NCBI RefSeq assembly: GCF_011039205.1
Contig: NZ_JAAKEL010000015.1
Coordinates: 1 to 64,000 of the forward strand
DNA from: Dysgonomonas sp. ZJ279
GTDB taxonomy: Bacteria; Bacteroidota; Bacteroidia; Bacteroidales; Dysgonomonadaceae
Direction: 5' to 3'
Length of the DNA stretch: 64,000 nt
Part shown: piece by piece, positions 53,702-60,720 of the stretch
Position numbering within the stretch: position 1 is the first letter of the stretch
Layout: every line of letters begins with the position of its first letter
Position numbers and translations under genes: made by a program
Notes under the pieces: model-generated
Database searches by the model: none
Told to the model about the DNA's origin: nothing
Seen by the model: only the letters and a program-made list of their open reading frames with translations

Positions 53702-53709
53702 TAATTTTG
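53702..53709 (+). promoter_or_regulatory. -7 element upstream of the (AG)n element
   Basis: TAATTTTG followed by C matches TAnnTTTG. It reads toward the AG tract and SusC. The mirror copy lies at 60451-60458. Confidence 0.6.
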
Positions 53710-53724
53710 CATTTGTATCGAATT

Positions 53725-53982
53725 ATGAAAAACATCTTTATGCACTATTGTTCTCCAAATAAATCAGCGATGTCTGCTATTTTTCCTCTTGGAAATTTGG
53801 CAGTTAACTCTATTTTATTAGAGAGAGAGAGAGAGAGAGAGAGAGAGAGAGAGAGAGAGAGAGAGAGAGAGAGAGAGAGAGAGAGAGAGAATAGTATACT
53901 AAAAAAATACCAAGATAACAACGATTTACCGTATTTAATATTTTTCTACCTGCTAAAGGTGGATGTAAAGGCCATACCCTAG
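53725..53982 (+). CDS. Short reading frame across the (AG)n tract (doubtful gene)
   Basis: An 86-codon frame starting at ATG 53725, about 15 nt after a -7 element, and ending in a terminator-like hairpin. It reads GNLAVNSILLERER and then a long Glu-Arg repeat from the AG tract. The same NLAVNSILLERER peptide is encoded at 60411-60214. It may be a real low-complexity peptide or only a by-product of the repeat; I lean to the latter unless transcription is shown. Confidence 0.25.
   Translation: MKNIFMHYCSPNKSAMSAIFPLGNLAVNSILLERERERERERERERERERERERENSILKKYQDNNDLPYLIFFYLLKVDVKAIP
53793..53890 (+). repeat. (AG)n element, copy 1: 27-bp core plus AG tract of about 71 nt
   Basis: The core from AAATTTGGCAGTTAACTC to TATTTTATT (53793-53819) is identical to the reverse complement of 60311-60337. 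It is followed by an uninterrupted AG dinucleotide tract from 53820 to 53890. The tract faces inward toward SusC. Long dinucleotide tracts like this are prone to length change by slippage. Confidence 0.95.
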
Positions 53983-54007
53983 ACAATTTAATTGTTTGGG
54001 GTATGGC
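53971..54007 (+). terminator. Hairpin in the susC leader
   Basis: GCCATACCC (53971-53979) pairs with GGGTATGGC (53999-54007), followed by TTTGCTATTT. It lies 140 nt upstream of susC and downstream of the AG tract, so it may be a terminator or attenuator. Confidence 0.6.
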
Positions 54008-54146
54008 TTTGCTATTTACTAAAGTCGAATTTAAAACTAAGGATAATATATTTCAAAAAAACTCAAAATGTTAACGGACCTCGCTTAAAACTCTAAAATT
54101 CAAAAACACCGGAAAAATTATTATTTAAATCTTTAAAACTAATCTT

Positions 54147-57100
54147 ATGGATCGAATAAGGAAGAAAATTTATTGTGTGCTGTTTGTTACACTATGCGCA
54201 AATGGGATTATGATGGCCTCGGGTAGTCATAATTCATATGGTATAGAAAGTGTGCAACAGCAACAAAAAGTAACTGGTATCATCACCGATGCCGATGGCC
54301 CTATTCCTGGGGCAACAGTATCGGTTAAAGGTACTACTAATGCAACAATGGCTGATGAAAATGGGCAGTTTACATTATCCAATGTTCCGCAAGGAGCTAC
54401 AATAACGGCCTCTAGTGTAGGTTATGTTACTGTAGAAGCAAGGTACACAGGACAGCCAACATTAAATTTTACATTGAAATCTAATACTACCGACTTAGAT
54501 GAAGTTGTTGTAACAGCTTTAGGTATGAAACGCTCTCAGAAATCACTGGGATATGCAATGACGGAATTGAAAGGTGAAGACTTGAATAGTAATGTGATTA
54601 ACCCTGTGTTGGCACTGCAAGGAAAAGTCGCCGGTGTGGAAATCGCGAATTCAGATGGTGGTCTGTTCGGCTCGACCAAAATTCAGATACGTGGTGCTTC
54701 TACTTTAGGTAAAAACAATCAGCCGATCTATGTAGTGGATGGAATGATTATTGGTAATGAAATTAAGGAAGGAAATCCTGATTGGGATAGTAACCCCAAT
54801 GACTATGGTAACGAACTTAAGAATCTGAATCCCGATGATTTTGAAACCGTATCGGTACTGAAAGGCGCTGCTGCAACAGCACTGTATGGTTCTCGTGGTT
54901 TGAACGGTGCAGTTGTAATTACAACTAAAAGTGGTAAGACTAATCAAGGTTTGGGTATCCAGTTCTCGCAAACTTTTGGTGTTGATGCTATAACATCTAC
55001 TCCTAATTTGCAGAATGAATTTGGTAATGGTACAATCGCAGGAAATGTGAGTTATGGTCAAAAAGATGCTAATGGTAATTATTTCATCTTCGATAATTTT
55101 CGCCAATTTCAGCTAAATAATGATGGACGTTTCACTTTGATACCGAGTCGGGGAATGAGTTACGGTCCTGCATTCGATGGGCGCGAAGTCGAATATTATG
55201 ATGGAACGTTCAGAGCCTACAACCCTGAAAAAAATAATTTCAGAGAAGCTTACCAAGCTGGTTTCAACTCAAATACCAATATAGCTATAAGTGGAGGGAA
55301 TGATAAAACAACATTTTACACCTCTATGTCATACAAGTATGCCAGTGGAACTCTTCCTAATAGTGAGTTTCAACGTGTATCATTCTTGGGAAAAGCAGCT
55401 CATAAAATAACAGATAAGGTAAGGCTGGAAGCGAGCATGGCGTTTGCTAATTCTATGCCTAGAAATCCACAAAAAAATATAGGCGAGAACTTTGTAAACG
55501 GAACATGGGGGCGTTCTTACGATCCTGCTTATTCTAGAACGAAGTATCTGGGTTCTCATGGAGGTTTGGCTAGTACATCGTACGGCGATCAATATGGTAA
55601 TATGCCTGGAAGTAGTGTTTGGTTTGATCTCTATGAAAACACTTATGAACAAAAGGAAACATCTGTTCGTCCGGCAATAAAACTGGATATTGATTTGCTC
55701 GATTGGTTGAAATTCAATACGGAGGCTAGCTACAATTATTACTACACCCGTTATGAAGGTAAGCAACTGGGACAAGGCTATGCCAATGAAGGTGGTGAAT
55801 ACGATATGAGAATGAGAAACAGAGAACAGACCAACTTAAATGCTAACTTTTTGGCAAACAAAGCATTTGGAGATTGGAATGTAAACGGATTCCTTCGTGG
55901 GGAGTATTACGAAAATTTTGCTCAAGCGCAGGATATACGAACAGATGATGGTTTGGTTGTGCCGGGTCAGTTTTTTATTGCAAATTCGAAAAAAACACCT
56001 GTATACTCAGCAAGAATTGCTGACCGGAAGAAAATTCTTTCTGTTGCATTCCAAGCCGGAGTAAGCTGGAAAGATCAGGTATATGTGGATGTAACCGGAC
56101 GTAACGACTGGTCGTCTGCTTTAGTATATACGGATGAGCATGGAACATATTCTTACTTCTATCCTTCTGTGAATGGATCGTGGCTTTTGAGTTCTACTTT
56201 CCGCGACAACCTGCCAGATTGGGTGTCTTTTGCTAAGATACGCGGATCATGGGCGCAGGTAGGTAATGATACAAGTCCTTACAATATCAATACCGCTTAT
56301 TCACTAACAACTTCTACGTTAGGGTCCTCTAATTACTACGGTTTGACAATTCCGACGAAAATGAATTCAACCAATCTGAGACCCGAACGTAAAAATGCTT
56401 GGGAGGTTGGTTTGGACTGGCGTTTCTTTGATGGCCGCTTCGGTGTAGATTTTACATATTACAAAGAAAATACAAAAGATCAGATCATGACGATTTCCGT
56501 ACCTTATCAGTCTGGTATCACGCAGCAGTTGATTAATGCCGGTAATATCGAAAATAAAGGTGTTGAGTTAGCTTTGAATGTAGTGCCTATCCGGACTAAA
56601 GATTTGGAATGGGAATTATTCTTCACTTATACAAAGAATGATAACAAAGTTATATCTCTACATGAGAACGTAGCGGATTATATTGTATTGGCAGGGGATC
56701 CTGCTTATGGTAACTTCCGTATTGGTTCGGTAGCAAAGGTCGGTGCTTCCTATGGAACATTGATGACAGATAGTGAACTGAAAATAGATGGAACATCAGG
56801 TTTACCTGTTTTGGTTTGGACTGAATCTGTGAGACGCGCCAATTATCTCCGTAATGAAACTGAAATCCAAGAAATAGGATCAATGATTCCGGATTTCTTA
56901 GGTTCTTTTTCTACTAAACTGAGATACAAAGACTGGTCGCTATTTGTAGGATTAGATATGCGTATTGGGGGATATGTAGCATCTTATAACTCACGTTATG
57001 GTACAGCTTACGGTTTTACCAAGAAATCATTAGAGGGTGCTCCGGGGCATGGAGGCCTCACTTGGACATCTGCATTTGATGGATTGACTTATCATGATGG

Positions 57101-59762: not shown

Positions 59763-59770
59763 TATATTTG
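59763..59770 (+). promoter_or_regulatory. -7 element of the candidate small RNA
   Basis: TATATTTG matches TAnnTTTG, with a TTG (59738-59740) about 22 nt upstream as a possible -33 element. Confidence 0.55.
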
Positions 59771-59777
59771 TAACCGT

Positions 59778-59960
59778 TTTTTAATATATACTCTCTAAAA
59801 GAAATCAATGAATCATGATTTAGTTACAAGAATATCGTATTTCTTGGAGACATATGCCTCGGTTATGTTTTCGAGAAATGTACTACATTGTTGTTAATCT
59901 AGTCAGTATTTATGTGATTTACTTGAAAGTGAAAAAGCCACCTTCACAGGCAGCTTTTTC
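59778..59960 (+). ncRNA. Candidate small RNA downstream of susD
   Basis: About 180 nt between a -7 promoter and a terminator-like hairpin. A long stem pairs 59839-59854 (ATTTCTTGGAGACATA) with 59864-59879 (TATGTTTTCGAGAAAT). Its three non-Watson-Crick positions are all G-U wobbles only on plus-strand RNA, which suggests a plus-strand transcript; two further G-U pairs extend it outward. No reading frame of note lies inside. Small RNAs beside SusCD loci are known in Bacteroides (for example DonS); this one is not recognised. Confidence 0.45.
59931..59960. terminator. Hairpin copy B, inverted
   Basis: AAAAAGCC-ACCTTCACAGG-CAGCTTTTT is the exact reverse complement of copy A (59696-59723). The stem is stronger when read on the minus strand. 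It may end the candidate small RNA on the plus strand, or minus-strand transcripts from the recG side. Confidence 0.6.
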
Positions 59961-60213
59961 CAAGTGTTTTTTAATATAATAACTAACATCTCTGAAAATC
60001 AAGGTTGAGCAAGTAAGAAATACTATACAACCAAGGGTTCGGAGGTGTTATCTTTTGCAACCGATCAATAATAAATCGGTTGATAGGTCTTTATAAACTA
60101 CACTTATATAATTTAGTGAAATTGATCTGATTAAGAGCAATAGATACGGCGGTATGTACCTATGTGCATAATAGATCCTCATATATTTTAGGATCTTCGA
60201 TAAATTGTTTTTA

Positions 60214-60411
60214 TTAAATCTTTTGGCTATAATACGCGTGCAGTGCGGAGTGTATAAGTGTGTTTTCTCTCTCTCTCTCTCTCTCTCTCTCTCTCTCTCT
60301 CTCTCTCTCTAATAAAATAGAGTTAACTGCCAAATTTTCAGGAGAAAAAAAGGAGTTAAAATCAATTATATTTAGAGTAGAATTTGTCATTAAATTGTGT
60401 TTGAATAGCAT
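60214..60411 (-). CDS. Short reading frame across the (CT)n tract (doubtful gene)
   Basis: A 65-codon minus-strand frame reading FFSPENLAVNSILLERERER and on into a Glu-Arg repeat. A TAATTTTG -7 element lies about 40 nt upstream, at 60451-60458. It shares the NLAVNSILLERER peptide with the frame at 53725. As for the other copy, it may be a repeat by-product. Confidence 0.25.
   Translation of the reverse strand: MLFKHNLMTNSTLNIIDFNSFFSPENLAVNSILLERERERERERERERENTLIHSALHAYYSQKI
60266..60337 (-). repeat. (AG)n element, copy 2: CT tract of about 45 nt plus 27-bp core, inverted
   Basis: The CT tract runs 60266-60310 on the plus strand, so on the minus strand the core (60337-60311) is followed by AG repeats. 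The 27-bp core is the exact reverse complement of 53793-53819, and the outer flank (CTCCT then GAAAATTT on the minus strand) is also similar. The tract is shorter than copy 1 (about 45 against 71 nt). Confidence 0.95.
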
Positions 60412-60720
60412 TTTTAACAGCAGCGAATTTAGCTATTTATTTTGGTTTGGCAAAATTACAGATGCTTTTTGCTTAATTTTTATTTGTCCTCTATATATCT
60501 GGAACTGTTTAACTTTGTTGTGTGTCTTAACTTTTGAGGGATGCATAAAAGTTGCTGATATGAGAGCTCGTGATATCTGTTAACTTTATCGGAAAATGAA
60601 CAGGGTGATCCTATTCATTTTTTTTATCGTTCTATAACTTTACAGAAGGTATTATCTGCTAATGTAGGAAGGATATCAGAGAAGGGAAAAGCTTGTTCAA
60701 CTTCGGGAAGTGTTGCTGTA
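60412..60720. other. AT-rich region between the (CT)n element and recG end
   Basis: It holds the inward -7 element at 60451-60458 (minus). No further gene was supported, and no clear terminator was identified immediately past recG. Confidence 0.4.
60451..60458 (-). promoter_or_regulatory. -7 element upstream of the inverted (AG)n element
   Basis: Minus-strand TAATTTTG followed by C, identical to the element at 53702-53709 and pointing toward the susD end. Confidence 0.55.

Follow-up and report, generated by a model that had tools for sequence, protein, structure and literature searches.

In the contingency genes of Neisseria and Haemophilus, repeats lie within the coding frame and slippage shifts that frame. 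Bacteroides capsule, S-layer and other surface loci possess invertible promoters, which give stochastic control by flipping of DNA segments, and for gut Bacteroidota it is mainly DNA inversion that has been associated with phase-variable surface and uptake loci. Here we describe a family of AG-repeat leaders, centered on a susC-susD operon of Dysgonomonas sp. ZJ279 that lies within positions 1 to 64,000 of contig NZ_JAAKEL010000015.1; this stretch of 64,000 nucleotides (nt) is referred to as the window. The closest described system is pil1 of Streptococcus gallolyticus, for which a repeat in a leader open reading frame (ORF) with a terminator behind it has been described, together with experiments showing that a frame shift lets the ribosome enter the hairpin, so that the operon stays on (PMC3894217). 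Within Bacteroidota, long 5' untranslated regions of Bacteroides thetaiotaomicron carry small ORFs that have been likened to attenuation leader peptides (PMC7366714).

A leader ORF, an AG tract and a terminator upstream of susC

The sequence-only reading of the window had described a 27-bp core present in two identical, inverted copies, each joined to a pure AG tract and each with an inward-pointing TAATTTTG on its outer side. All of these elements were recovered (Table 1). What that reading had not described is that an ATG opens the frame in which the core is read, that a strong terminator stands between the left-hand tract and susC, and that the window pair represents two of ten dispersed copies in the genome. 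We consider it probable (roughly 80%) that SusCD operons of Bacteroidota are controlled by transcription attenuation whose outcome depends on leader length, itself phase-variable through strand slippage, a view based on sequence layout and on analogy with pil1. Each intact copy with a terminator would be a phase-variable attenuator. Transcription would begin upstream, and a ribosome would translate the short leader peptide into the AG tract, where slipped-strand mispairing would add or remove AG units and thereby shift the downstream frame. One or two frames would make the ribosome halt just past the tract, so that the hairpin folds and transcription ends ahead of susC (OFF); the remaining one or two would carry it into or across the hairpin and block folding, and susC-susD would be transcribed (ON). 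The ON/OFF direction is assigned by the S. gallolyticus pil1 precedent. Slippage of the tract had already been proposed as a means of tuning expression; this idea fits the evidence, but the route would be the leader frame and the terminator, not the promoter.

Directly observed are the leader ORF with its tract, the terminator, the geometry of the frames and the differences in tract length between near-identical loci. At the window locus, the stop codon of the first leader in its present frame (53980-53982) falls within the terminator stem, and the two other frames end 4 and 12 nt past the tract. The region 53962-54018 has a folding energy of -30.2 kcal/mol (z -7.95). Because 35 units correspond to the frame that reaches the hairpin, the window operon is predicted to be ON. 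Transcription, translation, slippage and the slippage rate are what we infer from this arrangement.

Reading frames behind the tract

The first set of leaders comprised 92 sequences, 10 from the Dysgonomonas sp. ZJ279 genome and 82 from a pattern scan of species genomes; L085, a chance match in Clostridium without a long tract, was taken out before the leader, terminator and frame counts. A terminator was called strong at a folding energy of at most -12 kcal/mol, with at least 11 pairs and within 260 nt, and scoring required at least 250 nt of N-free downstream sequence, which 78 of the 92 loci had. In the first set, all 43 loci that have a strong terminator show either one or two frames that reach the hairpin; at no locus is the number zero or three. 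When the sequence ahead of the hairpin was shuffled by dinucleotides, this layout arose at a mean of 21.1 and a maximum of 29 of the 43 loci (500 runs), and permuting the hairpin distances among loci never attained the observed count in 5000 runs. The layout was retained at 36/36 loci once near-duplicates were removed and, under a stricter limit that requires the hairpin to be entered by 10 nt or more before the stop, at 41/43 loci (35/36 without near-duplicates).

A second set of 50 scored loci, none of them in the first, was drawn from loci already collected (9) and from 60 hand-picked core-search places (41), mostly ones that the first pattern would miss; near-orthologue pairs were kept, and 66 entries were dropped (51 first-set loci or duplicates, 11 in which the pattern was not found, two without a tract and two that were short). 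Here the layout was observed at 25 of 26 strong-terminator loci (shuffle mean 9.8, maximum 17), split by tract length into 21/21 loci with at least 8 units and 4/5 with shorter tracts. A smaller first replication, whose loci are contained in the second set, gave five fitting loci out of six with a strong terminator, a number at which the permutation test is powerless (P = 1.0). The present frame reaches the hairpin at 30/43 loci of the first set and 15/26 of the second, where random frames would give 21.3 and 12.3, respectively. The layout is real, repeated and strongly constrained.

Comparison of the hairpins with one another revealed that they are mostly non-homologous (mean pairwise ratio 0.45, shuffled 0.42, with 17 of 903 pairs above 0.7); what recurs between loci is therefore the layout and not one sequence. 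When the next gene is SusC-like, 26 of 27 scorable loci have a strong terminator, a 28th locus not being scorable; the list of these loci, like that of the Candidatus Azobacteroides loci discussed below, was compiled by hand from the scan and neighbor-gene results. As a control we took the 27 SusC genes of the same genome that lack an intact leader, with the first ATG of the open frame as the start: five have an equally strong hairpin within 400 nt upstream, and no short tandem repeat was found in that interval before any of the 27.

The core as coding sequence

All ten copies in the Dysgonomonas sp. ZJ279 genome are open upstream of the tract to an ATG. The encoded peptide consists of Met, about 12 variable residues, the motif IFSxENLxVxx(I/V)LL and an (ER)n run specified by the AG tract. 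Among the 92 leaders, an in-frame ATG lies 25 codons (39 leaders) or 26 codons (28 leaders) before the second Leu codon, and out-of-frame ATGs at these distances number zero. Both Leu codons show synonymous variation (TTA/TTG 29:8 and TTA/CTA 29:8 in 37 distinct sequences). The core is coding. The tract is pure AG, whereas the preferred Glu codon of susCD is GAA (61:21) and the preferred Arg codon CGT (32 versus 13 AGA), which argues that the tract is constrained at the DNA level. We take TAATTTTG to be a Bacteroidota-type -7 element (TAnnTTTG); 44/82 leaders have this motif in the 100 nt preceding their ATG, compared with a mean of 6.9 and a maximum of 15 in letter shuffles (fixed offset, all leaders with enough upstream DNA).

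Differences in tract length

Tracts were compared between paralogues and near-orthologues, with one assembly per species. One pair, L221 and L222, resides in a single genome and is identical over 112/112 upstream bases; the tracts have 22 and 29 units, and the stops fall at +7 and +464. Four pairs between G006 and G019, which represent two species, have upstream flanks that are 84-96% identical and tracts of 8/23, 9/5, 10/28 and 9/36 units. Within-genome groups have 28/12/4 and 24/4 units. Judged from these comparisons, tract length is labile, differing between near-identical loci and changing the frame; some of the differences may reflect assembly collapse in short-read genomes. Two loci of the single-contig genome G019, L242 and L253, contain very long pure AG tracts of 156 and 114 units.

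Distribution of the leader family

The sequence-only reading had also raised a dispersed repeat family, and this fits: a search of the genome (4.1 Mb, 58 contigs) with the core, allowing up to three mismatches, returned ten places, and the reversed control none. All nine AG tracts of at least eight units in this genome belong to the core family. Seven of the ten copies lie directly before a SusC-like gene and an eighth before a SusC gene with one gene between; given that 35 SusC genes score above the TIGR04056 cut-off, 8/35 are preceded by a leader. The remaining two are the right-hand copy of the window, which has no SusC-like gene behind it, and C14 (L061), which precedes a long open frame of which a 240-residue piece matched no Pfam family. 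In its present frame (32 units) C14 is open for 563 codons past the tract, through the terminator and on, and slippage there might therefore also fuse leader and gene product. An eleventh, decayed copy (L191, C12:152752-152799) precedes another, intact SusC gene; it retains the motif and has no long AG tract, no strong terminator and no ATG-opened frame leading in.

Within the genus, core matches were obtained in 17 of 25 Dysgonomonas genomes, with 10 to 17 matches in each of four and the highest number, 17, in G019. A sample of the order gave matches in 4/344 genomes and 2/194 genera. A peptide-profile search of the class matched 6/395 genomes, convincingly only for two of the genus; the other four matches are weak (expectation values, E, of 0.005-0.01), two of them with internal stops. 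The pattern scan of species genomes yielded 83 stretches, and the 80 listed derive from Dysgonomonas species, metagenome-assembled genomes (MAGs) labeled Prevotella sp. or Dysgonamonadaceae, a Candidatus Azobacteroides MAG and one Bacteroidia genome, together with the chance Clostridium match. Relatives of the window susCD with about 65% identity are found in G002 and G020; they lack the leader, which makes a tract comparison at the window locus impossible, and have different neighbor genes, in genomes that yielded no core match.

Features of the window

The positions of the two copies on either side of the susC-susD operon are as the sequence-only reading had them, but the bracketing looks incidental: behind the right-hand leader neither a SusC-like gene nor a strong terminator was found, and this copy is an orphan. 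A second inverted pair close to the leaders (53442-53499 and 59932-59989; 58 nt, 81% complementary) is terminator-like. These sites are perhaps the ends of former operons and may mark an operon lost from behind the orphan leader.

Table 1 Coordinates of the leaders, the susC-susD operon and associated elements in the window
Feature	Position	Strand	Evidence
TAATTTTG, presumed Bacteroidota-type -7 element of leader promoter	53702..53709	+	sequence
Leader ORF, present frame (ATG 53740; further in-frame ATG 53725)	53740..53982	+	
27-bp core, encodes conserved leader peptide motif ahead of tract	53793..53819	+	
(AG)35 tract plus one A, read as ER repeats	53820..53889	+	
Intrinsic terminator between tract and susC, T-rich tail	53968..54010	+	
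susC-like, TonB-linked outer-membrane protein	54147..57575	+	TIGR04056 579 bits (cut-off 368); Pfam Plug
susD-like lipoprotein	57621..59486	+	Pfam SusD-like families
Terminator-like site 3' of susD	59695..59724	+	
(AG)22 tract plus one A, orphan leader	60267..60310	-	
Second leader, conserved part M...LLER, orphan	60304..60390	-	
27-bp core, inverted copy	60311..60337	-	
TAATTTTG of second, orphan leader	60452..60459	-	sequence

Objections and alternative explanations

Several observations weigh against the proposed attenuation switch. The cut-off for a strong terminator was chosen after the first-set list had been viewed and was then kept for the second set, and many loci have no such terminator: 35/78 in the first set (43/78 with one) and 24/50 scored loci in the second (26/50 with one). 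L054 has a strong terminator, yet no frame reaches its hairpin, and an early stop within 20 nt, taken alone, is not enriched (38/43 loci, shuffles 35.1). The ATG stands at 25 or 26 codons in only 33/52 leaders of the second set. Several leader copies precede genes that are not SusC-like. At L221 and L222 the hairpin found is weak and no ATG was found in frame, and this pair therefore shows tract lability rather than the whole switch. The codon-position entropy of the core is 0.37 at third positions and 0.44 and 0.58 at first and second positions, a comparison by which selection acting on the peptide and selection acting on the nucleotides are not told apart; third positions being no more variable than the others, the core may have an additional role as RNA or DNA, and part of its conservation may lie at that level. 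Finally, the Candidatus Azobacteroides MAG has short tracts of 5-12 units; of its 21 scored copies, 19 have no strong terminator and none is in the longest frame, though tract lengths differ.

The Azobacteroides copies may be locked off or work otherwise. Many of these leaders share a similar stretch (TGTGCGCGTAATA...ATTACGCA) directly 3' of the tract, and several precede very large ORFs. The loci are L080, L082, L083, L087, L093, L095, L102, L104, L109, L113, L114, L117, L119, L123, L129, L135, L141, L143 and L149.

A regulated attenuator, in which the conserved nascent peptide or the ER run stalls the ribosome on a signal, with the AG tract as a by-product, would account for the conservation of IFSxENLxVxxILLER behind highly variable first residues, the almost fixed ATG distance in the first set, the copies that retain the motif with only 4-5 AG units and the early stop kept in all 21 scored Azobacteroides copies. 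It fails to predict the one or two open frames at 43/43 loci and pure AG tracts of 20-40 units, and we regard it as unlikely. Peptide and tract could also act together in genome-wide bet-hedging in Dysgonomonas and its relatives, in which many SusCD or surface-protein operons of a genome (up to 17 leader matches in one) would be switched independently by the AG tracts of leaders of one peptide family while the conserved peptide supplies a second input, for example through ribosome pausing or coupling to RNA polymerase, thus combining a random with a regulated switch; we put this forward tentatively, the odds being somewhat against it. A known RNA family or amino-acid biosynthesis attenuator was rejected, as no Rfam match reached gathering level in 53000-61000; allowing E values up to 1 gave two matches there, both far below gathering scores, and the weak Phe_leader match at 59632-59727 (25.8 versus 55 bits) lies 3' of susD. 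A trp-type antiterminator, or any conserved antiterminator pairing, is unlikely because the hairpins are mostly unrelated between loci.

Recombination between the two window copies, flipping the 6.4-kb susCD region, was the other mechanism in the sequence-only reading, and two inverted arms of 85 nt with 96% complementarity accord with it. It found no support otherwise: the promoters (TAATTTTG at 53702 and 60459) are outside the arms and flipping would only swap two similar leaders, none of the other eight copies in the genome forms a close inverted pair, and no recombinase was identified among the seven neighbor proteins tested (46.8-62.8 kb), while one could act from elsewhere. We give this inversion next to no credence. 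The core and tract could instead be a selfish or mobile repeat placed before SusC genes incidentally, as its dispersed copies, the orphan (60266-60459), the decayed copy on C12 and the leaderless relatives in G002 and G020 would allow. However, flanks and hairpins mostly differ among copies while frame geometry and ATG distance are kept, which makes such a repeat very improbable. An effect of the tract on promoter spacing was rejected, since the tract starts 111 nt downstream of TAATTTTG, inside the leader ORF. A contingency gene with an in-frame repeat does not describe the window locus either: the leader ends at 53982 and susC begins at 54147, so repeat and main product are not in one frame; C14, with its long open frame, may differ.

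Comparison with known systems

If phase-variable leader attenuation operates at these loci, it would constitute a second, recombinase-free route to phase variation of uptake loci in gut Bacteroidota, and the AG-unit count would predict from sequence alone which SusCD importers are on. It would also extend a mechanism described in one Streptococcus to another phylum. As the layout recurs at dozens of loci with mostly unrelated hairpins, the family offers a ready-made collection of loci at which the blocking of intrinsic termination by translation could be studied in Bacteroidota. Among the matches listed from the open-licence PubMed Central literature, we found no prior description of an AG-repeat leader switch at SusCD.

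The proposed system shares with the invertible promoters of Bacteroides the stochastic control of surface or outer-membrane proteins; unlike those, its promoter lies outside the repeats and slippage would be the source of variation. With the contingency genes of Neisseria and Haemophilus it would share frame shifting by slippage of a short repeat; here, in contrast, a separate leader carries the repeat and the product of the gene itself stays the same, C14 being a possible exception. The small ORFs of B. thetaiotaomicron are, as here, short ORFs upstream of genes, and the consulted sections on them describe no repeat or phase variation (PMC7366714). The nearest likeness is to S. gallolyticus pil1 and pil3 as presented in PMC3894217: a leader ORF holds a repeat whose length is not a multiple of three and has an intrinsic terminator behind it, the short frame ends before the hairpin and the longer frames end inside or beyond it, and a surface structure is controlled, the layout at our loci being known from sequence. 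The differences from pil1 and pil3 (PMC3894217) are that the present leaders belong to Bacteroidota, have AG rather than GCAGA as the repeat unit, carry a conserved motif before the repeat, number 10 to 17 core matches per genome in four of the 25 Dysgonomonas genomes and serve mainly SusCD importers, not pili. By this analogy, the system would be a variant of phase-variable leader attenuation carried into the SusCD operons of another phylum.

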